A DNA stretch of 64,000 bases from Acinetobacter sp. XS-4 (GTDB taxonomy: Bacteria > Pseudomonadota > Gammaproteobacteria > Pseudomonadales > Moraxellaceae), in contig NZ_CP094657.1 of the NCBI RefSeq assembly GCF_023920705.1, forward strand, positions 496,001 through 560,000, written 5' to 3'. The translations under genes and the position numbers were made by a program. This document shows, in pieces, positions 1 through 36,065 of the stretch (positions are counted from its first letter, which is position 1; every line of letters begins with the position of its first letter). The notes beneath the pieces were generated by a model. The model made no database searches. It was given only the letters and a program-made list of their open reading frames with translations, and was not told the origin of the DNA.

Positions 1-352
<352 letters not shown>

Positions 353-411
353 ACGAAAGATTGACGATTGGTAAGAATCCACAACAAGTTGTTCTTCATA
401 GATGTATCTGA

Positions 412-488
<77 letters not shown>

Positions 489-544
489 TGACTTTGACTG
501 GTTGAAGTTATAGAAAAGAAGATACAGAACTGATGATGTAAGCT

Positions 545-620
545 GGGGACTTAGCTTAGTTGGTAGAGCGCCTGCTTTGCACGCAGGAGGTCAGGAGTTC
601 GACTCTCCTAGTCTCCACCA
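545..620 (+). tRNA. tRNA-Ala (UGC)
   Basis: A 76-nt tRNA in the 16S-23S spacer, 56 nt after tRNA-Ile. The anticodon loop TTTGCAC gives UGC. The acceptor GGGGACT pairs with AGTCTCC with one G-U pair, and CCA is encoded. Confidence 0.96.
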
Positions 621-971
621 GAACTTAAGAGAAGTTCGGATTACAGAAATTAGTAAATAGAGATTTAGATCTTAGTTTATTAACTTCTGTGATTTAAGTA
701 TCACGGTATTAAGCATGACCTGACGAAGGCGTGTTTATTCATTAACAGATTGGCAAAATTGAGTCTGAAATAAATTGTTCACTCAAGAGTTTAGATTAAG
801 CAATTGATCTAAATGAATTGAGAACTAGCAAATTAACTGAATCAAGCGTTTTGGTATATGAATTAGATTGAAGCTGTACAGTGTTTAAGTACACAGGCAA
901 CAGATAGTAGCGATGAAGAATCGCACGGACAACACTCACTTGTAGGTGTTGACGACTGTTTGGGGTTGTAT
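621..971 (+). other. spacer between tRNA-Ala and 23S rRNA
   Basis: A 351-nt transcribed spacer with no gene. It contains a local hairpin near 930-951. Its end (955-979) is almost perfectly complementary to 3856-3880 just past the 23S 3' end, so the two sides can form the long stem typical of RNase III processing of pre-23S rRNA. Confidence 0.7.
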
Positions 972-3865
<2,894 letters not shown>

Positions 3866-4041
3866 CAACACCCAAGCAGTTGTATATAAAGCATCAATCG
3901 ATTCATTAATGTACAAAGCAACTTGATTTAGTTATATGCTTAGCTAAAATGAACAAATAAAGTAAGATTCAATCAGCCCATCTGTAAAGTTTTGGAAAAC
4001 GCATCGGCACATTAAGACCAATGCAAGTATCCATACCAGTT

Positions 4042-4158
4042 GTGCTGGCGACCATAGCAAGAGTGAACCACCTGATCCCTTCCCGAACTCAGAAGTGAAA
4101 CCTCTTAGCGCTGATGGTAGTGTGGGGTTTCCCATGTGAGAGTAAGTCATCGCCAGCT
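4042..4158 (+). rRNA. rrf: 5S rRNA
   Basis: A gene of about 115 nt whose terminal helix is GCTGGCGA paired with TCGCCAGC. The CCGAACTCAGAAGTGAAA block is typical of 5S. It lies about 175 nt after the 23S gene. Exact ends are uncertain by 1-3 nt. Confidence 0.93.
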
Positions 4159-4167
4159 CATTATTCT

Positions 4168-4203
4168 AAACACCCCCTACTTAATCGTTGGGGGTGTTTT
4201 TTT
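4168..4203 (+). terminator. rRNA operon terminator
   Basis: Hairpin AACACCCCC / GGGGGTGTT followed by a run of T. It lies directly downstream of 5S. The same hairpin follows the second operon at 39613-39648. Confidence 0.9.
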
Positions 4204-4310
4204 GTGCGCGGAATTAATTTTGTATCCCTAATTCTTTAGACATTAAAATTAATTCAGTTTATAAAGAAATAAAGCTGCTCTAAAATTATTTACCTATTTA
4301 GAAATCTACT

Positions 4311-4706
4311 ATGCAATGGATCTTAGTTAAAACTTTCTCGTTTCCTTATGAGGCGCAAATTGCAAAAACTCAATTAGAGGCTTTTGGAATTCCTGCACGT
4401 ATTGAAAATGAACATACAATTAATATGGACTGGTTTTATTCAAATGCATTGGGTGGAGTTCGTTTATTAGTATTGGAAAAGGATATTGATGATGCAAATG
4501 CTCTTCTTGAAAAAGATTTTAGTGAAGAGTTAGAGCAAGAGTTTGGAAAAAATAAAGACCAATGCCCTAACTGTGGAAGTTATGATATTGAAGCCTACAC
4601 AAAAGGAAAAAAATCAGCCTTTCTGGCTTTCATGTTCTTAGGTTTGCCTTTATTTTCTTTTACAAATGGTAATAGATGTAAACAGTGTCAATATTTTTGG
4701 AACTAA
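4311..4706 (+). CDS. DUF2007 domain protein with C-terminal zinc ribbon
   Basis: 131 residues, start ATG. Residues about 1-70 look like the DUF2007 (putative signal-transducing) domain: a ferredoxin-like fold with 'F..P.EA.I.K..LE..GI.ARIE' and a 'V..L.V...D...A..LL' helix end. The C-terminus has two CxxC pairs (CPNC and CKQC) that could hold one zinc ion. A hydrophobic stretch (AFLAFMFLGLPLF) lies between them. The partners are unknown. It is the first gene after the rRNA operon and is followed in the same direction by two other small genes at loose spacing, so co-transcription is not certain. The family call rests on pattern recognition. Confidence 0.75.
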   Translation: MQWILVKTFSFPYEAQIAKTQLEAFGIPARIENEHTINMDWFYSNALGGVRLLVLEKDIDDANALLEKDFSEELEQEFGKNKDQCPNCGSYDIEAYTKGKKSAFLAFMFLGLPLFSFTNGNRCKQCQYFWN

Positions 4707-4835
4707 TGATTTGACATTATTTTAATTGTTTAGAGTCAGTTATGAATGAAAGGCTGAAATCTATAATAAGATTGAAAATTGATCCATAATAGAAAATATT
4801 ATAAAACTATAAAAAATTATAAAGGGAAGAATGTC

Positions 4836-5186
4836 ATGGGATATAAAGGAAGTTGTCATTGTGGTCAGATTAAATTTGTAGCTGAAGGAGAGCTCTTAGA
4901 GGTTTTATCTTGCAATTGTTCCATTTGTCAAAAGAAAGGTTCTTTACTTTGGTTCTTAGCAAGTAAGCAAGTTGAAATTTCTTTAGAAAATCCTGATATT
5001 TTAGAGAGTTATACTTTTAATAAACATGTGATTAATCATTACTTTTGTAAAAAATGTGGTATTCATCCTTATGCCCAAGGTCTAGATGCAGAAGGTAATT
5101 CTATCTTTGCTATTAATGTTCGATGTATAGATGACATAGATTTAGAAAAAATAAAAATAAATTATTTTGATGGACGTTCAGTTTAA
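4836..5186 (+). CDS. GFA-family (glutathione-dependent formaldehyde-activating enzyme-like) zinc protein
   Basis: 116 residues from an ATG preceded by AAGGGAAG at 4822-4829. An upstream TTG would add 19 Lys/Tyr/Asn-rich residues that do not look like the family. The cysteine pattern of the Mss4-like GFA/CENP-V fold is complete: GSCHCG near the start, CNCSIC in the middle and FCKKCG later, which should bind two zinc ions. Members were named after a glutathione-formaldehyde adduct-forming enzyme, but most are of unknown substrate, so formaldehyde detoxification should not be assumed. The next gene starts 20 bp downstream. Confidence 0.85.
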   Translation: MGYKGSCHCGQIKFVAEGELLEVLSCNCSICQKKGSLLWFLASKQVEISLENPDILESYTFNKHVINHYFCKKCGIHPYAQGLDAEGNSIFAINVRCIDDIDLEKIKINYFDGRSV

Positions 5187-5206
5187 TAAATATAAGGATT
5201 TATTTA

Positions 5207-5770
5207 ATGACAGCAAAAAAGCAACTAGCTCCAAAGCAGATAGAAGTTTTAGTTGAGACATTAAAAGATAGGTTCGAAAAGAATCCACATCGTCATAAAG
5301 AAATAGATTGGTCCAATGTACAAACTAAACTAATTAAATCTCCTGAAAAATTATGGTCATTGCAAGAAATGGAGAGTACAGGAGGAGAGCCTGACATTGT
5401 GGCTTATGATCAGTTGAAAGATGAATATTTGTTTGTGGATTGCTCTCCTGAGACACCCAAAGGCCGTAGAAGTCTTTGTTATGATCGAGAAGCTTTGGTC
5501 GCTAGAAAAGATCACCCTCCTAAGAATAGTGCAATAGATATAGCTAAAGAAATGGGAGCCGAGCTTCTCACAGAAGAGCAATACCATGAATTACAAAATT
5601 TAGGAGAGTTTGATCTTAAAACATCGAGTTGGCTCAAAACCCCAGATGAGATTCGACAGTTAGATGGAGCAATTTTTGCTGACCGACGTTATGGTCGGGT
5701 CTTTATTTATCATAATGGAGCACAATCTTATTATGCTGCTCGTGGATTTCGGTGCTTTCTAAGAATTTAG
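5207..5770 (+). CDS. DUF4256 family protein
   Basis: 187 residues, ATG start with AAGG about 12 nt upstream. I recognise it as DUF4256: an N-terminal 'L...F..NPHRH..I.W' block, a central 'MESTGGEPD' block, 'CSPETPKGRRSLCYD', and the C-terminal 'W..TP..IR.LGGAIF.DRRYGRVF..HNGA.SYY..RGFR' block. The family is widely distributed but has no assigned reaction. No signal peptide or membrane segment is visible, so it is probably cytoplasmic. It lies 20 bp after the GFA-family gene and probably shares its transcript. Confidence 0.8.
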   Translation: MTAKKQLAPKQIEVLVETLKDRFEKNPHRHKEIDWSNVQTKLIKSPEKLWSLQEMESTGGEPDIVAYDQLKDEYLFVDCSPETPKGRRSLCYDREALVARKDHPPKNSAIDIAKEMGAELLTEEQYHELQNLGEFDLKTSSWLKTPDEIRQLDGAIFADRRYGRVFIYHNGAQSYYAARGFRCFLRI

Positions 5771-13430: not shown

Positions 13431-14267
13431 ATGACGCTTTCAACATCTCTACAAGCTTTAGATCTTGATGACAGCATTCAATTAGAACAAGACGGCAGTA
13501 TTTTATATCTCTGGTTAAACAGACCAGAGAGCCGTAATGCCATGAATTTGAAGATGGTCAATGCCATTCAACAAGTCTTTGCTGCTATTCGCAATGATCT
13601 TTTGATTCGTGCAGTCATTATTCGTGGCGAAGGTGGATCTTTTTGTGCAGGTGGTGACATTAAAGACATGGCTGCTTTACGTGTTGAAGCGACCAATGTC
13701 GGTACCTTACAACCTTATGCTGATTTTAACCGTCGTTTTGGTGCCATGCTTGAGCAAGTTGAAGTTGCACCGCAAACGGTTGTGGTGATTTTAGAAGGTG
13801 CTGTTTTAGGTGGTGGTTTTGGTTTGGCATGTGTTTCCGATGTTGCCATCAGCCGTGACAATGCTAAGTTTGGTTTGCCTGAAACGGGACTTGGTGTGAT
13901 TCCTGCGCAAATTGCTCCTTTTGTGGTGAAGCGTATTGGCCTGACTCAGGCTCGTCGATTAGCTTTATTAGGCATGCGTTTTGAGGGCCATATAGCACTT
14001 AGTGTCGGAGTAGTCCATCAGATTGCTCATAATGAAATTGAACTAGAGCAAGCTTTAGAGGAAACGATTCAACACATTAAACGAGCAGCTCCCCAAGCTT
14101 CGCGTGTGACTAAAGTACTGTTACATCGAACGTTCAATGAGTCTTTGAGTGATTTGTTAGATGATGCTGCACAGCAGTTTGCTCAAGCAGTTGGTGGTGC
14201 CGAGGGACAAGAAGGAACGATGGCTTTTATCCAGAAACGCTTGCCAAACTGGGCTGATGAGTCATAA
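13431..14267 (+). CDS. atuE: isohexenylglutaconyl-CoA hydratase (enoyl-CoA hydratase family)
   Basis: 278 residues, ATG with AAGGGATAAG upstream, 15 bp after atuD. The crotonase fold is shown by the two oxyanion-hole segments 'GEGGSFCAGGDIKDMAA' and 'LEGAVLGGGFGLACVSD', followed by 'FGLPETGLGVIPAQIAPFVV'. By operon position it should hydrate the carboxylated product of AtuC/AtuF (3-isohexenylglutaconyl-CoA), as AtuE does in Pseudomonas. The LiuC hydratase of leucine breakdown is the alternative on sequence alone. Confidence 0.86.
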   Translation: MTLSTSLQALDLDDSIQLEQDGSILYLWLNRPESRNAMNLKMVNAIQQVFAAIRNDLLIRAVIIRGEGGSFCAGGDIKDMAALRVEATNVGTLQPYADFNRRFGAMLEQVEVAPQTVVVILEGAVLGGGFGLACVSDVAISRDNAKFGLPETGLGVIPAQIAPFVVKRIGLTQARRLALLGMRFEGHIALSVGVVHQIAHNEIELEQALEETIQHIKRAAPQASRVTKVLLHRTFNESLSDLLDDAAQQFAQAVGGAEGQEGTMAFIQKRLPNWADES

Positions 14268-14285
14268 GAGATAAGGATAAAAATA

Positions 14286-16226
14286 ATGAAATTTTCAAAA
14301 GTACTGGTTGCCAACCGTGGTGAAATTGCAGTTCGAGTCATGCAAACTGCTAAGGCAATGGGCTATCAAACCGTCGCAGTTTATTCTGATGCTGACCGTA
14401 ACGCTCGCCATGTGCAAGAAGCAGATGAAGCTGTTTACATTGGGCTATCAAAAGTATCTGAGTCTTATCTTTCAATTGCAAAAATTATAGATGCTTGTAA
14501 AAAAACAGGAGCAGATGCGGTTCATCCTGGTTATGGATTTTTGTCTGAAAATACCGATTTTGCACAGGCCTGTATCGACAACAAGATTACGTTTATTGGG
14601 CCAACAGCTTCTGCAATTGAGTTAATGGGAAGTAAGCGACTTTCAAAAATTACCATGATTGAAGCAGGTGTACCTTGTGTACCTGGTTATGAAGGCGATC
14701 GGCAAGACCTTGAATATTTAGCAGCTCAAGCAGAACAGGTTGGCTTTCCAATTATGGTCAAAGCCTCTGCGGGCGGTGGTGGCCGTGGTATGCGCTTGGT
14801 ACAGCAGTCGTCCGAGTTGATTGAAGCTTTGCAAACTGCACGTTCAGAGGCTGAAAATGCCTTTGGCTCAGGCGAACTTATTTTGGAAAAAGCAGTGATT
14901 GCTCCACGCCATGTCGAAATTCAGGTTTTTGGCGATACACACCGCAATTATGTTTATCTGTTTGAGCGTGATTGTTCGATTCAACGCCGTCACCAAAAGG
15001 TTGTTGAAGAAGCGCCATGTCCAATCATGATTCCTGAACTGCGTCAGCAAATGGGTGAGGCGGCTGTAGCAGCGGCTAAAGCATGTGCTTATGTCGGTGC
15101 AGGAACGGTTGAGTTTTTGCTTGATGCGTCGGGGACATTTTATTTTTTAGAAATGAATACCCGTTTGCAAGTAGAGCATCCGGTCACTGAGCTCATTACA
15201 GGACTAGATTTAGTTGAATGGCAGTTACGTATTGCGAATGGTGAACAATTGCCTTTGCAACAACATGAATTGACATTAAACGGCCATGCAATCGAAGTGC
15301 GCTTGTATGCCGAAGATCCGCGGCAAGATTTCTTGCCACAAACAGGTCAAGTGTTACGTTGGCAGCCAGCAATATTGCCAAATGTACGAATTGACCACGG
15401 CATGTTGACAACCGATGAGGTTAGCCCTTTCTATGACCCGATGGTGGCGAAGGTGATCGCATACGGTAAAACCCGTGAGGATGCGATTCGCTTACTTGCT
15501 CGTGCCGTAGATGATTGTGTTTTGCTGGGTGTAAACAGTAATAAACAATTTTTGGTCAATTTATTACGCCATCCTGTCTTTGTTGCTGGCGATACCAATA
15601 CTGCATTTATTCAACAGCATTTTCAAAACGACAACAGTCTACATAAGCCAGTTCTATGTTTGGAAACCTTAGCCATTGCGGCGGCATTGTTTAGTCAAAG
15701 TAAAGGTACTGTGGCGTGGCAAACTGGATTAGGTGTGCCATTACCGTTAAAGCTTAAATATGATGATCAACAAATTCAATTGCAGCTTTCATCTGTAAAT
15801 AACACGTTTACGGCACAGCTTTGTGATCAAACAGTTTGTATTGAAGTGCTTGAGAGAACACCAGAGCAATTAGTTTATTTAATTGATGGCGTACGCCGCC
15901 ATGTGCAATATGTATTAGATGGTGATCAGCTTTATTTAGATCGAGAGAATGGCAATGTTGTGATACGAAATATGACTTATGCTGCGCCAGAAATAGCTGA
16001 TGTGACTGGTGATGGCAAAATTCGTGCACCGATGGACGGTGCTGTAGTAAATATTTTGGTCAATAAAGGCGATCAAGTCGTGAAAGGGCAAACTTTATTA
16101 GTACTTGAAGCCATGAAAATTCAACAGCAGATTAAATCTGATGTGGATGGTGTAGTTGAAGATGTGTTAGGGCAACAGGGTCAACAAGTAAAAAAACGGC
16201 AAATGTTATTTAGTATTGTGGTCTAA
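14286..16226 (+). CDS. atuF: geranyl-CoA carboxylase, biotin carboxylase (alpha) subunit
   Basis: 646 residues, ATG after AGATAAGGAT. Order of domains: biotin carboxylase N-domain from residue 1 ('KVLVANRGEIAVRV'), ATP-grasp with 'KASAGGGGRGMR' and 'EMNTRLQVEHPVTE', a linker, and a C-terminal biotinyl domain. The biotin-accepting lysine is K611 in EAMKI, where most carriers read EAMKM. It carboxylates biotin with ATP and bicarbonate and hands the group to AtuC. It is the last gene of the operon and a strong hairpin follows directly. The homologues atuG and atuH are not present here. Confidence 0.9.
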   Translation: MKFSKVLVANRGEIAVRVMQTAKAMGYQTVAVYSDADRNARHVQEADEAVYIGLSKVSESYLSIAKIIDACKKTGADAVHPGYGFLSENTDFAQACIDNKITFIGPTASAIELMGSKRLSKITMIEAGVPCVPGYEGDRQDLEYLAAQAEQVGFPIMVKASAGGGGRGMRLVQQSSELIEALQTARSEAENAFGSGELILEKAVIAPRHVEIQVFGDTHRNYVYLFERDCSIQRRHQKVVEEAPCPIMIPELRQQMGEAAVAAAKACAYVGAGTVEFLLDASGTFYFLEMNTRLQVEHPVTELITGLDLVEWQLRIANGEQLPLQQHELTLNGHAIEVRLYAEDPRQDFLPQTGQVLRWQPAILPNVRIDHGMLTTDEVSPFYDPMVAKVIAYGKTREDAIRLLARAVDDCVLLGVNSNKQFLVNLLRHPVFVAGDTNTAFIQQHFQNDNSLHKPVLCLETLAIAAALFSQSKGTVAWQTGLGVPLPLKLKYDDQQIQLQLSSVNNTFTAQLCDQTVCIEVLERTPEQLVYLIDGVRRHVQYVLDGDQLYLDRENGNVVIRNMTYAAPEIADVTGDGKIRAPMDGAVVNILVNKGDQVVKGQTLLVLEAMKIQQQIKSDVDGVVEDVLGQQGQQVKKRQMLFSIVV

Positions 16227-16227
16227 T

Positions 16228-16262
16228 AATAAATGCCACCTTTTATGGGTGGCATTTATTTA
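16228..16262 (+). terminator. atu operon terminator
   Basis: A 13-bp stem AATAAATGCCACC / GGTGGCATTTATT with a 7-nt loop starts 2 nt after the atuF stop codon. The T content after it is modest. It may also serve the convergent Roadblock operon. Confidence 0.8.
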
Positions 16263-16278
16263 AATGAAGACTTGTAAT

Positions 16279-16698
16279 TTATTCTCCATCGGCCTCTGCA
16301 ATCAACTGACTTGCTTTTTTTAGGCTATAAAGTAACTGTCCCAAAAGAACCTCTTTATTACTTAAAGTGACCATCACCATAGGGTGATGAACTGCTGGAA
16401 TAGCCGTCAGAATGGCCTTGCCATTATCTGCATCTAAGGTAATGTTATTACAGCCAGTGAGTTGAATCTCTTTTAAAAATGCAGTGACCATTGCCAAAAT
16501 TGAGCTACTCACCGCTGCTAATTTGGTGGTGTTATGATAGTTTTTATGACTTACTATCGCCAATTCAAAACCATCAGAAGAGCAAATCATCACAAAATCT
16601 ACACCACGCGTATTCATTAAAATATTATAAGCTTCACTTTTTGCGAGTTGTAGCAATTGCGTTGGTGCTGTTCGTTTTTGAACTGGAATACTAAGCAT
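16279..16698 (-). CDS. Roadblock/LC7-domain protein (second, distal)
   Basis: 139 residues. The Roadblock fold is suggested by 'GVDFVMICSSDGFELAIVS', the helix 'KLAAVSSSILAMVTAFLKEI' and the strand pair 'NNITLDADNGKAILTAIP'. This pattern resembles MglB/CvnB proteins that act on Ras-like GTPases. No signal peptide or membrane segment is present. Its ATG overlaps the end of the GTPase gene by 8 nt, which implies translational coupling, so it is a likely GTPase-activating or scaffold partner. The family is fairly clear; the biological role is not known to me. Confidence 0.8.
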   Translation of the reverse strand: MLSIPVQKRTAPTQLLQLAKSEAYNILMNTRGVDFVMICSSDGFELAIVSHKNYHNTTKLAAVSSSILAMVTAFLKEIQLTGCNNITLDADNGKAILTAIPAVHHPMVMVTLSNKEVLLGQLLYSLKKASQLIAEADGE

Positions 16699-17251
16699 GA
16701 TTGTTCCCCTGAGATGTTAAGCCTACTTTTACTTCAAGCGAGGCAATTAATGACTCAACCATCATTAAAATTTGTTCTTGCTCTCGCGCATCAATGAAAA
16801 ATAATGGATAAGTTAATTCATTTGCTTTTATCCAGTTACGATATTGCTGAAGAGAAGATTCTTTATTTTCATCAACATGAGTAATGCCAATTGCAATATT
16901 ATCATTATAATTTTTAAAGGTTTCTAAGTAGCTTTCTAGCTCGGCAATTGGATTAGCACTATTATGATCTAATAATAAAATAATACCGATTGCACCTTCA
17001 CAAATGACCGACCATATAAAATCAAAACGGCTTTGTCCGGGTGTTCCATAGAGTCCAATTTTGACTCCATCATCTAATGTAATTTCACCATAATCAATGC
17101 CTACAGTGGTTTGGGTTTTCTGGTGGCTTTGTACATCGGTATTAAATGCTTCAGTTCCCAAAATTGGAATTTCAGATAGCGATTTAATCGCTTCTGTTTT
17201 ACCTGCCCCCATACTACCTGCAAAGACAATTTTGTATTGCTGTATAATCAT
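16691..17251 (-). CDS. small Ras-like GTPase (COG2229/CvnD-like)
   Basis: 186 residues. P-loop GSMGAGKT at residues 12-19. The switch II region reads YGTPGQSRF (68-76), with the TPGQ form in place of DxxGQ. The base-recognition motif is THVD (124-127) rather than NKxD. TPGQ and THxD are what I expect of COG2229 GTPases, the group that includes the CvnD proteins of Streptomyces conservons. It is a cytoplasmic molecular switch without a visible lipid anchor. It lies 8 bp after the 321-residue gene and overlaps the next Roadblock gene, so the three are translated as a block. The process it controls is unknown. Confidence 0.85.
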   Translation of the reverse strand: MIIQQYKIVFAGSMGAGKTEAIKSLSEIPILGTEAFNTDVQSHQKTQTTVGIDYGEITLDDGVKIGLYGTPGQSRFDFIWSVICEGAIGIILLLDHNSANPIAELESYLETFKNYNDNIAIGITHVDENKESSLQQYRNWIKANELTYPLFFIDAREQEQILMMVESLIASLEVKVGLTSQGNNHA

Positions 17252-17259
17252 AACTTACC

Positions 17260-18225
17260 TTAAAGACCAAAACGCCGTCTAATCTTCCCTATAAAATTTT
17301 TAAAAAAATGATTATCTATATTTGAATTTTCTAAATGAGAATTGGGTTCGTAAGAACATTTATTTGCCGAAACAAATCTTCCATTATTGGCTATTAAACA
17401 AGCTGTAACGAAGCATAAGACGTCATCAACTGATAAGTTAAGCTGTTTAGCCACCTCATGAATTTTTGCTCCCTGTATAAAACATGCAGAGAGTTGTAGG
17501 CTCACTTTTCTATATTCTTTTTGGTAGGGCTGTGGCCAATGATCAATTTTAAAATATCTATCCGCTGTAGCTAGATTTTCAAAGTTTTTTGAATGCCAAA
17601 TCAGATTCCACAACCAGTCCTGTAAATAGTAGTTTTTTTTACGAGACACTTTGGTGAAGTCGGAGGTTTTAGCAAAAGTGAAATCAAAGCTTTGATTAGT
17701 TCGTGTGAGTTGGCGTGATGGTTCTAACCACGCAATTTGCGTCCTATTATCAATAATAGCGAGAGTACCTTTGTCATCAAAGATGTGTAGTCTGGCATTT
17801 TCTGGACTGTGCAAATTTCTTATAAAATGATCATCAATGAGTAGGGGCTCATTTGGTAAATCTGAAACTACAGTAGTGCTCTTCTGGTTTAAATACGATA
17901 ATAGGTTTATTTGTAGCCAGTCTAATAGAGATTCTACTTTTTCTAGCGGTAGATGCAGGGTATGTTCATCAAGTTGATATCCATTTTGTGAAGGAGTTTT
18001 AGTAATTTTTAAATAAGGACATTTTTTCTTTTGAAGAATATTTTGAATATTATCTGAATCAAAAAAGCTTTCGTTAATTAATAATAAATCAATATGAGTA
18101 TTAGAAATATTAACCCAATTAATACCATACTGATGAGATATTAAATTTCTGATTAAAGTTTTTAATTCATCTAGAACTTTCAAACTTAAACCAGAAGTGG
18201 CAATATTTATGCAATTCCTATCCAT
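17260..18225 (-). CDS. unknown protein of the Roadblock-GTPase module
   Basis: 321 residues; no named family recognised. Residues about 1-110 alternate strands and helices in a way that could be a degenerate receiver-like fold ('THIDLLLINESFF', later 'LHLPLEKVESLLDWL'), but no phosphorylatable Asp pocket is evident. A middle part has 'RLHIFDDKGTLAIIDNRTQIAWLEPSR'. Residues about 235-285 ('FIQGAKIHEVAKQLNLSVDDVLCFVTACLIANNGRF') read like a winged-helix-type domain, recalling the CvnC/DUF742 partner of conservon GTPases. The C-terminus is basic (KIRRRFGL). It is located 8 bp before the GTPase gene and 83 bp after the first Roadblock gene. Confidence 0.7.
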   Translation of the reverse strand: MDRNCINIATSGLSLKVLDELKTLIRNLISHQYGINWVNISNTHIDLLLINESFFDSDNIQNILQKKKCPYLKITKTPSQNGYQLDEHTLHLPLEKVESLLDWLQINLLSYLNQKSTTVVSDLPNEPLLIDDHFIRNLHSPENARLHIFDDKGTLAIIDNRTQIAWLEPSRQLTRTNQSFDFTFAKTSDFTKVSRKKNYYLQDWLWNLIWHSKNFENLATADRYFKIDHWPQPYQKEYRKVSLQLSACFIQGAKIHEVAKQLNLSVDDVLCFVTACLIANNGRFVSANKCSYEPNSHLENSNIDNHFFKNFIGKIRRRFGL

Positions 18226-18308
18226 AGTATCACATTAAATTTTATTGAATAACATAATAGTTTTAATGTGCTTTTTATAATAAATATAAAAAGCACATCT
18301 TAGATTAG

Positions 18309-18668
18309 TTAGCTAAAGTCTAGCTCTTTTTCAAATGACTTTAACTCATGACGAGCCATAGCCAAATTCGATTTGGTACGATCAAGCACTAAGTAAAGGA
18401 ACAAATTATTATTACTTTCTAGGGGGCGAATTAGGTGGTAAGCCTTACCTAAGGTAATTAAAATATCTTCAATATTATCATTTAAATTCAAAGCATTAGC
18501 GATATTTCGCTTTGCGCGAATTACTTCTGTATTTCCAGCAGCAGCCAATTCTAAATCAATTTCCCCACCACCTTGTGTTGCAAGTGATAACCCACTTTCT
18601 GAATCAACAAGTGCAGAAGCAATAAAACCATCAATTTCAGTTAAGCTATCTAAAGAAAGTTTAGCCAT
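18309..18668 (-). CDS. Roadblock/LC7-domain protein (first, promoter-proximal)
   Basis: 119 residues from the ATG ending at 18668, preceded by a CAGAGAGAT ribosome site. A longer frame starting at 18746 was rejected because that ATG lies upstream of the predicted transcript start. The protein shows the Roadblock pattern '[21 protein letters not shown]', a central helix with '[17 protein letters not shown]', and '[16 protein letters not shown]...LFLYLVLDR'. It is short and all cytoplasmic, like MglB. It is the first gene of the module and follows a strong promoter; the 82-bp gap to the next gene may allow a higher level of this subunit than of the GTPase. Confidence 0.8.
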
Positions 18669-18701
18669 GTTTTTATCTCTCTGGATTCTAAAATTATATT
18701 T

Positions 18702-18721
18702 ACTACTTTTTAAAAAGTAGT
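18702..18721. promoter_or_regulatory. 20-bp palindrome at the module's transcript start
   Basis: ACTACTTTTTAAAAAGTAGT is a perfect 20-bp palindrome. It starts about 9 bp downstream of the -10 box of the promoter at 18730-18757, so it covers the expected transcription start. That suits a repressor site; as RNA it could also form a weak 5' hairpin. Confidence 0.55.
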
Positions 18722-18729
18722 TGAAATTC

Positions 18730-18757
18730 ATTATATTTCTGAACAAATTGAAGTCAA
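18730..18757 (-). promoter_or_regulatory. promoter of the Roadblock-GTPase module
   Basis: Read on the minus strand: TTGACT, 16-bp spacer, TATAAT. This is close to the sigma-70 consensus and places the start near 18723, about 55 nt before the chosen start codon. Confidence 0.7.
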
Positions 18758-18962
18758 TTCATCAAGTAAAGTACTAGGTTTTAGTTTTGGGAAATAAGTG
18801 ACAGAAAATGTCAGACTATAAAAGACATTATAAGATTAGTCTTGCATTATACTTTTAATACTGTGCTGAGGTTTACATTATATATTTTAAAATTTAGATA
18901 AGATAATTGTAATAGAATATTAATACAATATTGATTAATAAAATATACTAATTTTAATCAAT

Positions 18963-18993
18963 AAAAAGGGGAATATTTAATTCCCCCTTTTTT
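18963..18993 (-). terminator. terminator of the sspA-sspB operon
   Basis: Stem with arms GGGGAAT / ATTCCCC (one bulged C), flanked by A and T runs on both sides. It lies 16-46 nt past the stop of the tail-anchored protein gene, and ends that transcript on the minus strand. Confidence 0.75.
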
Positions 18994-19008
18994 ATAATAA
19001 TGATCAAA

Positions 19009-19665
19009 CTAAACGAGCTGTGTATAAATACAATAGAGGTAACCCAAAATTGCTAAAGCAACAACAGGGGCAATAATCTTTGACCATGTAGGTACAGAAA
19101 CCTCGGCAGCTTGTTCGTCAATATGCAGATCATCATGATGAGGTTGGGCTTGGTGAACCATTTGGTTGAACTCCTTCATTGTTGTATCCAATGATAGCTC
19201 TTCTTGTTCCACAGGTTTAGAACCAATTAACTCATTTAGGTGGTTTGTTGACCAAACCCAATCTTCTGCCTGACCTGATAAATGTTCTACTTGACCTAAA
19301 ATTAATTCTTTTAAGCCATTATGCCCAAAGCCACCTGTTTCATCGAGTTGGTTAAGTTCTGCTAACTGCAAAGTTAAAATTTCAGAAATACTCTGTTCGA
19401 GTTCTGCATTTTTTAAAGTCGACTGATTATGCTTAGATGTTGTTAAATGGCGAGCAACTTCCTGAATATAAAGCGGATCTGCAGCTTTGATTTCATGATA
19501 AATCTTATTATCATCTTGGCGCCACAAACTAATCAGTTTTCCAAGCGTAAGAATATTTACTTCATCAATCAGTTTATTTTTTTCATTAACTGGATATTGA
19601 TTTAAAAGCTGAGGCTTTTGAATTTTTATCTGCTCAGCAAAGTATTGGACTAAATCAAATGCCAT
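19009..19665 (-). CDS. tail-anchored protein of unknown function, sspA-sspB operon
   Basis: 218 residues; I do not recognise the family. The N-terminal 150 residues are rich in helices ('LIDEVNILTLGKLISLWRQDD', 'LEQSISEILTLQLAELNQL'). A Glu/Gln/His-rich linker follows, and residues about 193-215 (WSKIIAPVVALAILGYLYCIYTQ) form one hydrophobic segment at the extreme C-terminus, with no N-terminal signal. This is the layout of a tail-anchored inner-membrane protein with a cytoplasmic body. It begins 17 bp after sspB and ends at the operon terminator, so it is probably expressed with the stringent starvation proteins. Confidence 0.7.
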   Translation of the reverse strand: MAFDLVQYFAEQIKIQKPQLLNQYPVNEKNKLIDEVNILTLGKLISLWRQDDNKIYHEIKAADPLYIQEVARHLTTSKHNQSTLKNAELEQSISEILTLQLAELNQLDETGGFGHNGLKELILGQVEHLSGQAEDWVWSTNHLNELIGSKPVEQEELSLDTTMKEFNQMVHQAQPHHDDLHIDEQAAEVSVPTWSKIIAPVVALAILGYLYCIYTQLV

Positions 19666-19682
19666 GCTTTCTTCCTCTAAAT

Positions 19683-20117
19683 TTAATCTAAAATTCTTAA
19701 CGTTGGTTTTTTCTTGGTCGATGTTGTTTCAATAGCTTCTTGTACTTCTGACTCTACTGTATTTTCTACAGGCACTACATTGGCATATTCTTCAGGATCA
19801 AAGAATAAACCTTGTCCATTTTCACGTGCATAAATACCTAAAACAGCCTGAATAGGTACATAAATATCTTTTGACGCCCCCCCGAAACGGGCAGAAAAAG
19901 TAATGGCTTCATTTCCGATAATAAGTTGATGAACAGCATGAGGTACGATATTCAAAACGATTTGGCCATCTTTAACAAATTGCTGTGGAACATCGGTATG
20001 TGGCTGTGTCGCATCCACTAATAGATAAGGAGTAAGCTGGTTATCACAAATCCATTCATAGATTGCACGAGCAAGATAAGGACGTGTAGGGGTTAAATCA
20101 ATAGTTTGCTCAGACAT
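19683..20117 (-). CDS. sspB: ClpXP adaptor / stringent starvation protein B
   Basis: 144 residues. The SspB substrate-binding domain covers about residues 8-110: 'RPYLARAIYEWICDNQLTPYLLVDA', 'IVLNIVPHAVHQLIIGNEAITFSARFGG', 'PIQAVLGIYARENGQGLFF'. The C-terminal tail ends in TLRILD, resembling the short ClpX-docking tail of E. coli SspB. It tethers ssrA-tagged, ribosome-rescued proteins to ClpXP. It follows sspA by 6 bp, the standard order. Confidence 0.95.
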   Translation of the reverse strand: MSEQTIDLTPTRPYLARAIYEWICDNQLTPYLLVDATQPHTDVPQQFVKDGQIVLNIVPHAVHQLIIGNEAITFSARFGGASKDIYVPIQAVLGIYARENGQGLFFDPEEYANVVPVENTVESEVQEAIETTSTKKKPTLRILD

Positions 20118-20123
20118 ATCACA

Positions 20124-20777
20124 CTATTCCATATTTAATAGTTCATTGTAACGGTTTTTCTCTTGAGCCGTCATTGATTTAGCAAAAGAAGGCCTCTCAA
20201 AGATACGTTTACAATACAAAAGTATCGGCCGGCAGTGCTGTTTAGGTAAATCGATTCCCATGCTATTTAATCTTAAAAAGATAGGGGCAAGCATACAGTC
20301 CAAGATTGTGAAATGCTCAGACATAAAATAGGGAAAATGCTGAAATAAGGGAGTAAGTGAAATTAAAGTTTCACGTAATTCTTTTTGTGCTTTTTGCTTT
20401 TGTTCTACATTTAAAGAATCAGCATGTTTTAACATGTGATCTGCTAACTTGAACCAGTCATTCTCAAGTCTCCATATATATTGACGCTGCTCTGCACGCA
20501 TCATTGGAGCATCTGCGTAAAGCTTACTTTGGCGATAACGATCATCTAAATATTCAGCAATAATCGGTGCTGAAAATAGTTTAAGATTTTGCTCGACCAA
20601 CATCGGCAATTGGTTATATGGATTTAAACTTGCCAAATCTTCGTCTTCATGGTCAGTTACGATCAATTGATATTTGATTTGCTTTTCTGCTAATAAGAAA
20701 CGAATCCAGTGAGAACGGAAATCATCAGCATGACTGTAAAGGGTAATCCCCTGAATAGAGGTGTTTTCGACCGACAT
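20124..20777 (-). CDS. sspA: stringent starvation protein A (RNA-polymerase-associated GST-fold protein)
   Basis: 217 residues with an N-terminal thioredoxin-like domain ('ITLYSHADDFRSHWIRFLLAEKQIKY', 'NPYNQLPMLVEQNLKLFSAPIIAEYLDDRY') and a C-terminal all-helical GST domain. As in E. coli SspA, the GST catalytic residue is not expected to work; the protein binds RNA polymerase and affects stress and late-gene transcription. First gene of the sspA-sspB-unknown operon, lying downstream of rpsI in the same direction. Confidence 0.93.
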   Translation of the reverse strand: MSVENTSIQGITLYSHADDFRSHWIRFLLAEKQIKYQLIVTDHEDEDLASLNPYNQLPMLVEQNLKLFSAPIIAEYLDDRYRQSKLYADAPMMRAEQRQYIWRLENDWFKLADHMLKHADSLNVEQKQKAQKELRETLISLTPLFQHFPYFMSEHFTILDCMLAPIFLRLNSMGIDLPKQHCRPILLYCKRIFERPSFAKSMTAQEKNRYNELLNME

Positions 20778-20901
20778 ATCACAAGACGACGTGGTTGAGT
20801 GAATCGATTAGGATACTAAAAATGCTCTCGGAAATCACGGTTCTAACGAGATAGTTTGTTTATATTTATAAGTTTGCATTTTATTGTTCGATTTTCATAA
20901 T

Positions 20902-20932
20902 AAAAAAGCCTTGGAAAAATCCAAGGCTTTTT
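20902..20932 (-). terminator. rplM-rpsI terminator
   Basis: Stem AAAAGCCTTGG / CCAAGGCTTTT with loop AAAAAT, 20 nt after the rpsI stop on the minus strand and followed by a T run. Confidence 0.9.
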
Positions 20933-20951
20933 GTCCAACTCGGTAAACGAA

Positions 20952-21338
20952 TTAACGTTTAGAGAATTGAGGACGCTTACGAGCTTTACGTAAACCAAGT
21001 TTCTTACGTTCAACTTCACGAGCATCACGAGTAACGAAACCAGCTTGACGAAGAACAGGTTTTAAAGTTTCGTCAGCAGCGATAAGTGCACGAGTAATAC
21101 CGTGACGGATCGCGCCAGCTTGACCACCAATACCACCACCTTTAACAGTGATGTAAAGGTCAAACTTTTCAGTAACTTCTAAAAGTTCTAAAGGTTGACG
21201 AACAACCATACGAGCAGTTTCACGACCGAAATATTGCTCTAAAGTACGGTTGTTAATAACGAGTTTGCCTGTACCAGCTGACAAGAAAACACGTGCAGTT
21301 GCGGTCTTACGGCGACCTGTACCATAATTAGTAGCCAT
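20952..21338 (-). CDS. rpsI: 30S ribosomal protein S9
   Basis: 128 residues. The sequence opens with '[15 protein letters not shown]' and ends in the basic tail '[12 protein letters not shown]', which reaches the ribosomal P site. '[19 protein letters not shown]' is the diagnostic centre. It follows rplM by 12 bp and shares its regulated promoter. Confidence 0.98.
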
Positions 21339-21350
21339 GTGCTGTATCCC

Positions 21351-21779
21351 TTAGATGTCCAAAACTTGTGGCTGTTGAGCAGCATGCGGATGCTCAGTAC
21401 CAGCGTACACTTTCATTTTTTTGATCATTGCATAACCAAGAGGACCTTTTGGTAACATGCCTTTAACTGCTTTTTCAAGAACAGCTTCAGGCTTGTGAGC
21501 AATTAACTTCTCGAAGTTAGTCTCACGGATACCACCAGGGAAACCAGTATGGCGATAATATTTCTTATCAAGCGCTTTTTTACCAGTCACTTGAACTTGT
21601 TCAGCATTAATCACAACGATGTAATCGCCAGTGTCAACGTGAGGAGTATAAGAAGTTTTGTGCTTACCGCGTAAACGACGAGCGATTTCAGTCGCAAGGC
21701 GACCTAAAGTTTTGCCAGAAGCATCAACAACATACCAGTCATGTTGAACTTCAGCTGGCTTAGCGCTGAGAGTTTTCAT
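21351..21779 (-). CDS. rplM: 50S ribosomal protein L13
   Basis: 142 residues, full length: '[27 protein letters not shown]', '[21 protein letters not shown]', '[33 protein letters not shown]'. First gene of rplM-rpsI. In E. coli the operon is autoregulated by L13 through its leader. The leader here (21780-21835) can form two exclusive hairpins, one next to the start codon, and would be a natural place for the same control. Confidence 0.98.
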
Positions 21780-35856: not shown

Positions 35857-35933
<77 letters not shown>

Positions 35934-35989
35934 TGACTTTGACTGGTTGAAGTTATAGAAAAGAAGATACAGAACTGATGATGTAAGCT

Positions 35990-36065
35990 GGGGACTTAGC
36001 TTAGTTGGTAGAGCGCCTGCTTTGCACGCAGGAGGTCAGGAGTTCGACTCTCCTAGTCTCCACCA
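35990..36065 (+). tRNA. tRNA-Ala (UGC), second copy
   Basis: Same sequence as the copy at 545-620. Anticodon UGC; encoded CCA. Confidence 0.96.

Follow-up and report, generated by a model that had tools for sequence, protein, structure and literature searches.

A Roadblock-GTPase module of Acinetobacter sp. XS-4 that fits the Group 3 MglA class, with a partner protein whose N-terminal domain is exchanged among relatives

Group 3 MglA systems were described computationally in 2014 from beta- and gammaproteobacteria (Wuichet and Sogaard-Andersen, PMC4316618). As set out there, each combines an MglA homologue with one or two MglB homologues and a conserved protein whose N-terminus is receiver-like and whose C-terminus is a winged helix-turn-helix (wHTH); the G4 motif of the GTPase lacks lysine, its G5 reads DAR, an arginine finger is absent, and the authors proposed regulation of transcription (PMC4316618). 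Acinetobacter has 0 occurrences in the main text of that paper. Here we report on a module of four adjacent genes in Acinetobacter sp. XS-4, found in a stretch of 64,000 nucleotides (nt) of contig NZ_CP094657.1 (positions 496,001 to 560,000; hereafter the window, to the whole of which coordinates refer). As a preliminary description of this DNA had stated, all four open reading frames (ORFs) lie side by side, on the minus strand; in order of transcription they encode a divergent Roadblock/LC7 protein (RoblA), a 321-residue partner protein, a small GTPase and a further Roadblock/LC7 protein (RoblB) (Table 1). Judged by gene content, motifs and predicted domain make-up the module fits the Group 3 MglA class, so its arrangement is not new, and we regard it as a further representative of a class that is known but uncharacterised. 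The BLUF-bearing versions, the pseudo-receiver chemistry, the conserved tail and the winged-helix likeness reported below are new, being absent from the open literature searched. That search, with subscription literature outside it, found no Acinetobacter Roadblock-GTPase module, in line with the earlier remark that no function was described in this genus, and nothing on BLUF together with Roadblock or MglA systems.

The third protein, announced as a COG2229-like GTPase with TPGQ and THVD motifs, proved to be a GTPase with both motifs in place: it matches the Pfam families Ras (E=4e-6) and ATP_bind_1 (E=2e-8) and carries the P-loop GSMGAGKT together with LYGTPGQ, THVD and DAR. At the G3 position usually held by Asp, 9 of 20 aligned sequences have T, the other 11 have I, V, L, M, A or C, and none has Asp; MglA likewise carries Thr78 in place of this residue (PMC3000849). 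The G4 motif (THVD) is without lysine and G5 reads DAR, with D and R each present in 19/20 aligned GTPases and the middle A in 10/20. An arginine finger by the G2 threonine is absent, since the window reads KTQTTV with Q47 preceding T48; one relative (L039) has R at position 46. Comparison with the Protein Data Bank (PDB) returned mostly Rab-type proteins and no MglA among the matches listed (the best 60 of 187 and the best 60 of 522).

Coupled MglB homologues, another mark of Group 3, are present with unequal clarity. RoblB matches Pfam Robl_LC7 (E=7e-6), its family profile matches the solved structures of cvnB5 (3leq, 1e-12) and MglB (6h5b, 2e-3), and it has the Asp-Gly pair, in which D42 is invariant and G43 nearly so. 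RoblA is without this pair and, searched alone, has no Roadblock match in Pfam at E<=1. Among its relatives, 6 of 21 match Robl_LC7 at that cut-off (best 2e-4), the next family being reached by 2 of 21 (best 0.04), and the RoblA profile reaches a single PDB entry below E=0.1, a Roadblock/LC7 protein (E=0.0024). A comparison of the RoblA and RoblB profiles gave an unconvincing probability of 7%, which weighs against RoblA as a Roadblock, and the assignment therefore rests on the relatives' Robl_LC7 matches and the PDB profile match. We take RoblA to be a probable divergent Roadblock, called by family and less securely than RoblB; the pair of Roadblock proteins supposed at the outset thus stands directly for RoblB and through family searches for RoblA.

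The partner protein is composed of a pseudo-receiver, a middle domain, a winged helix and a basic tail. Its winged-helix-like C-terminal part, suspected from the letters, is supported by structure prediction (AlphaFold2, pLDDT [predicted local distance difference test] 87) and by VIA-align, and the prediction also revealed the N-terminal receiver fold, which the preliminary description had missed. Receiver-like and wHTH parts in one protein are the Group 3 layout; here they are seen in the model and by VIA-align, with Foldseek matches that are not significant. The phospho-acceptor Asp and acidic pair of a phosphorylatable response regulator are lacking: the window has N51 at the acceptor position and A-T-S-G at positions 9-12, and D occupies the acceptor position in 3/40 compared. 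A conserved W230-P231 precedes the winged helix, whose nearest folds in VIA-align are chains of GATOR1/SEA complexes, with DNA-binding regulators ranking lower. We treat this modelled likeness as a lead only. Pfam NPR2/NPR3 gave no match for the partner at E<=1 and no longin domain was seen; a profile of diverse partners searched against the PDB returned a chance-looking top match (a designed TIM barrel, 0 stretches) and then generic helix-turn-helix proteins. The Pfam family DUF742 was matched neither by the partner nor by seven relatives at E<=1, and it is absent among the fold matches listed for the partner. The last 18 residues have a net charge of at least +2 in 31/31 partners picked (own included; mean +4.0), whatever the N-terminal domain, against 11/158 GTPases, 14/160 RoblA and 30/143 RoblB proteins, control sets that may include ORFs cut by locus ends.

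A synteny survey, proposed earlier as a check, found the genes kept together across Acinetobacter. The partner has a match in 62 of 99 Acinetobacter genomes (own included); these 62 also match the GTPase, for which one further weak match spans 39 residues (Fisher p 3e-26 for co-occurrence, kinship uncorrected). Among the 30 best loci (own included), 28 keep the order RoblA-partner-GTPase-RoblB, the two others (L024, L025) being those in which RoblA was not found, and all 30 have the neighbouring gene for a 218-residue protein. Mean identity to the window, leaving out the own locus, is 86% for RoblA (27 loci), 76% for the GTPase, 74% for RoblB and 53% for the partner (29 loci each), with 69% for the 218-residue neighbour (29 loci); RoblA is thus the most conserved member and the partner the fastest-evolving. 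Genomes hold up to 3 GTPase matches, and 3 partner matches carry internal stops. Many genomes have further clusters, some with partner and GTPase alone (L032, L051) and others in the order GTPase-RoblB-partner-RoblA (L036, L040, L046). The GTPase and RoblB are identified by sequence family, the partner fold by model and the gene order by synteny, and in these respects nothing that the preliminary description would have counted against the module was found.

Relatives extend well beyond the genus. A search of 293 Pseudomonadales genomes with a distant GTPase gave a match at E<=1e-8 in 33, and RoblA, RoblB, the GTPase and a partner ORF occur together in 8 of 20 fetched flanks (L088, L093, L096-L101). 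A RoblA profile scan of named genomes yielded at least 556 confirmed relatives; the 80 retained include Acinetobacter, Psychrobacter, Moraxella, Alkanindiges, Xanthomonas, Stenotrophomonas, Lysobacter, Dyella, Marinobacter, Variovorax, Ramlibacter and metagenome-assembled genomes (MAGs) of Myxococcota. The gene order varies, being RoblB-RoblA-partner-GTPase in Xanthomonadales (e.g. L145, L154, L155, L160-L162) and partner-GTPase-RoblB-RoblA in Burkholderiales (L180, L182), and some Psychrobacter and Alkanindiges loci have solitary RoblA genes without a GTPase within about 4 kb. Apparent partner-GTPase fusions in Xanthomonas (L156-L159) were rejected, as by eye the long ORFs extend beyond the GTPase start, on its upstream side, in another frame.

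The N-terminal slot of the partner is exchangeable: it holds a pseudo-receiver in Acinetobacter and a BLUF blue-light domain in Psychrobacter-like relatives. The BLUF domain was recognised by Pfam in L096, L097 and L099 (E 4e-21, 5e-23 and 5e-11). For the genus of L096 and L097, DNA identity to a stretch of Psychrobacter frigidicola was 74-77% in 6/6 genomes tested; L099 belongs to another family of the order. A full-length BLUF-winged-helix partner is found in 22 of 80 genomes of the Psychrobacter-like genus, and 78 of the 80 give some match, mostly to the BLUF part alone. In 20 BLUF-partner loci fetched, some of them cut by contig ends, the GTPase adjoins in 20, RoblB in 19 and RoblA in 16.

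Several other loci carry GTPase clusters of different make-up. In L038 (G031:C82, 1928-8530), from an Acinetobacter-genus genome, a divergent MglA-type GTPase stands with an ABC ATPase-DSP phosphatase fusion, a ferredoxin-globin fusion and Roadblock-like proteins (Pfam, some by eye), which gives this GTPase cluster an unusual redox flavour. Another type, in L039 (G077, 272-5491) and L083 (G294), combines the GTPase with a Roadblock, a PAS protein (Pfam), a protein that by eye resembles PhnD, and a 432-residue partner with a receiver-like start (by eye) and a basic tail. GTPases of about 320-330 residues, with the G domain at residues 3-174 or so, occur in L091 (5320-6309), L094 (4805-5761) and L102 (5498-6496); their C-terminal extensions look Roadblock-like by eye, and natural GTPase-Roadblock fusions are possible. 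In a Myxococcales MAG (L170, 6368-7609), a RoblA-type gene is followed by a 413-residue protein with a P-loop GTPase-like start (by eye).

Within the window, the partner and GTPase genes are separated by 8 nt and the GTPase and RoblB genes overlap by 8 nt. For RoblA the most probable start is the ATG at 18668, with AGAGAG just upstream, and not the TTG at 18746. The RoblA gene is set off from the partner gene, the first of the three tightly packed ones, by 83 nt containing a strong hairpin, and the single transcript suggested earlier for all four genes is therefore no more than a possibility. Of 30 loci surveyed for this hairpin (own included), 28 have both RoblA and partner, and the gap between them folds with z < -3 in 24 of these 28, despite differing length and sequence. 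The hairpin may fairly be inferred to act as a leaky terminator or processing site, giving more RoblA than the rest, and the hairpin at the module end is likely a shared terminator of convergent genes. The promoter-like site upstream of RoblA is weak on its own, because 19 such sites were found in the region against 13.4 expected. The module of the window lies at an sspB-type locus among housekeeping genes: between 13431 and 21779 the neighbours encode ECH, a biotin carboxylase-type protein, the 218-residue protein, SspB, a GST-like protein, S9 and L13. The 218-residue protein (19009-19665) has no Pfam family over the cut-off and, by eye, a hydrophobic C-terminal stretch. Neighbours gave no functional hint, either at the sspB-type locus or where RoblA stands alone in Psychrobacter and Alkanindiges, likewise among housekeeping genes (names by eye). 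Elsewhere in the window, tRNA-Ile/tRNA-Ala pairs stand at 412-620 and 35857-36065; such pairs occur inside rRNA operons, and the window probably holds two of these 35 kb apart.

Table 1. Coordinates of the module and its features in the window.
Feature	Position	Strand	Basis
RoblA, divergent Roadblock/LC7 (second MglB-like), 119 residues	18309..18668	-	ORF, family searches
Partner protein (putative sensor/regulator), 321 residues	17260..18225	-	ORF, structure model
MglA-type small GTPase, 186 residues	16691..17251	-	Pfam, alignment
RoblB, Roadblock/LC7 (MglB/CvnB-like), 139 residues	16279..16698	-	Pfam, profile matches
Pseudo-receiver (CheY-like) domain of partner, residues 3-119	17869..18219	-	Structure model; N51 at phospho-Asp position, acidic pair absent
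Winged-helix domain of partner, residues 236-285	17371..17520	-	AlphaFold2 models, VIA-align, alignment
Basic C-terminal tail of partner, residues 304-321 (DNHFFKNFIGKIRRRFGL)	17263..17316	-	Charge count across partners
Promoter-like site TTGACT-16-TATAAT upstream of RoblA	18730..18757	-	11/12 consensus matches
Intercistronic hairpin, RoblA-partner gene	18265..18299	-	-21.7 kcal/mol, z -5.6
Hairpin between convergent genes at module end	16228..16260	-	-18.1 kcal/mol, z -6.25

The analysis shows which genes the module contains, their motifs and domains, the swapping of the N-terminal domain, the conservation of the tail and the co-occurrence of the genes; all of the biochemistry, the way in which regulation runs and the output are inferences. 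With about even confidence, we read it as a Group 3 MglA switch in which the partner is the input sensor or regulator of the GTPase. The Ras-like GTPase, of the MglA kind, would cycle between GTP and GDP forms, with RoblB as its likely GTPase-activating protein (GAP), because RoblB belongs to the MglB family; RoblA may bind RoblB or several GTPases. The N-terminal slot of the partner would take the signal, through a pseudo-receiver in Acinetobacter or a BLUF photoreceptor in Psychrobacter-like relatives, a role suggested by the domain exchange and the constant linkage. The W-P/winged-helix part would touch the GTPase-Roadblock complex rather than DNA, and the basic tail may anchor the partner to the membrane or to a polar partner. 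The output would most likely be control of type IV pili or another surface behaviour. Support for this, and for the motility or polarity guessed at earlier, is indirect. A strong PilT match is present in 33/33 GTPase-positive genomes against 256/293 in Pseudomonadales (p 0.009; weak, with kinship uncorrected). In Snodgrassella, whose mglA is of Group 3, an orphan mglB mutation was accompanied by soft-agar flares and by a gain in a bee host other than the native one, and from transposon sequencing (Tn-seq) the authors report three mglB genes as beneficial (PMC11112851). In Acinetobacter, both motility and biofilm are influenced by BLUF proteins (PMC3554667); the genome of the window has two BLUF genes elsewhere, and a link in trans between these and the module is only a thought.

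Several observations weigh against this reading. The PilT association is weak, the genomes not being independent and PilT being common; at class level it falls to 16/16 RoblA-positive genomes against 309/369 (p 0.055), and the GTPase set tested includes C-terminally extended forms and perhaps members of other MglA groups. The Snodgrassella mutation sits in an orphan mglB, and the module is missing from 37 of 99 Acinetobacter genomes. Neither half of the partner has a significant match in Foldseek (best E 0.012 and 0.17). Model confidence is low for the tail, whose helical moment is no higher than in shuffles (mean z 0.43), and the first helix of the winged-helix part (236-249) is basic (mean net +1.9) and could serve DNA or membrane. 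That helix, together with the classic response-regulator layout of receiver plus wHTH, speaks for the suggestion of Wuichet and Sogaard-Andersen (2014) that the partner is a transcription factor gated by the GTPase module, with a receiver-like input and a DNA-binding output. We consider this unlikely, because the receiver is not phosphorylatable in the usual way, the recognition helix is poor in K/R (mean 0.62, none in 18/40) and DNA-binding regulators rank below GATOR1-type chains.

A GTPase switch with an output unrelated to pili, such as cell polarity, envelope or stress tolerance, would sit well with the housekeeping neighbourhood; in the order sample, however, all 33 genomes with the GTPase also have a strong PilT match, and we hold such an output to be improbable too. 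The patchy, duplicated occurrence and fast-evolving partner could also be those of a selfish or anti-phage element, for which the multiple GTPase copies, the interrupted partner genes and the gap between 53% partner identity and 74-86% for the other three proteins would speak. Yet RoblA is very conserved, the same neighbouring gene stands in 30/30 best loci, and PADLOC gave 0 matches at E<=0.01 for the four window proteins and one relative, and the label of a defence system was rejected; an element of this kind is highly improbable.

A Group 3 MglA switch with the partner as sensor opens a wider, rather doubtful prospect: Group 3 MglA proteins as sensor-gated GTPase switches, with a partner built from an exchangeable input, a GTPase-facing winged helix of GATOR1-GAP type and a membrane or pole tail. 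On this view nature would already have made small GTPases controlled by light, in the Psychrobacter-like versions, and the bacterial module would correspond in minimal form to Rag/Ragulator/GATOR1. Since BLUF-bearing partners have a signal that can be switched by a lamp, partner control of the GTPase is directly testable. The class was catalogued in 2014, and the sole phenotype found in the open literature searched comes from one Snodgrassella mutant study. If the partner does control the GTPase, many bacterial genera, including Acinetobacter and Xanthomonas, have Ras-like switches that are gated by sensors and whose inputs can be interchanged, and the winged-helix likeness to GATOR1 would bear on the origin of eukaryotic GTPase regulators.

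Compared with known systems, the module is not the conservon-like one that had been proposed. Actinobacterial conservons (Cvn, Group 2) share with it a Roadblock close to cvnB5 by profile and a GTPase with deviant G4 and DAR-type G5, but in the window a scan of the neighbours from 13431 to 21779 showed no gene for the kinase CvnA, DUF742 is unmatched, there are two Roadblocks, and the host is a proteobacterium. A reduced conservon was rejected because of this missing kinase and the better fit to Group 3; the proposals of a kinase-less Roadblock-GTPase signalling module and, less firmly, of a third partner unlike that of conservons both stood. Myxococcus xanthus MglA/MglB (Group 1) has in common with the window a Ras-like GTPase, a Roadblock GAP and a possible link to type IV pili; the window differs in that its GTPase has no arginine by the G2 threonine and its cluster includes a dedicated partner protein. 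Photoreceptors such as Acinetobacter BlsA share the BLUF domain with the Psychrobacter-like partners, but are short and without an output domain, and the window partner itself is without BLUF. In the Rag-Ragulator-GATOR1 system, small GTPases work with Roadblock proteins. Its GATOR1-type regulators Npr2/Npr3 carry wHTH domains (PMC3521125), and such chains are the nearest folds to the modelled partner winged helix, a likeness of fold in which homology is only a possibility. Group 3 MglA comes closest, with the same GTPase motifs, one or two MglB-like proteins, a receiver-like plus wHTH partner and beta- and gammaproteobacterial hosts; to its description as summarised at the outset the window and its relatives add the pseudo-receiver chemistry, the BLUF versions, the conserved tail, the intercistronic hairpin and the GATOR1-like wHTH.

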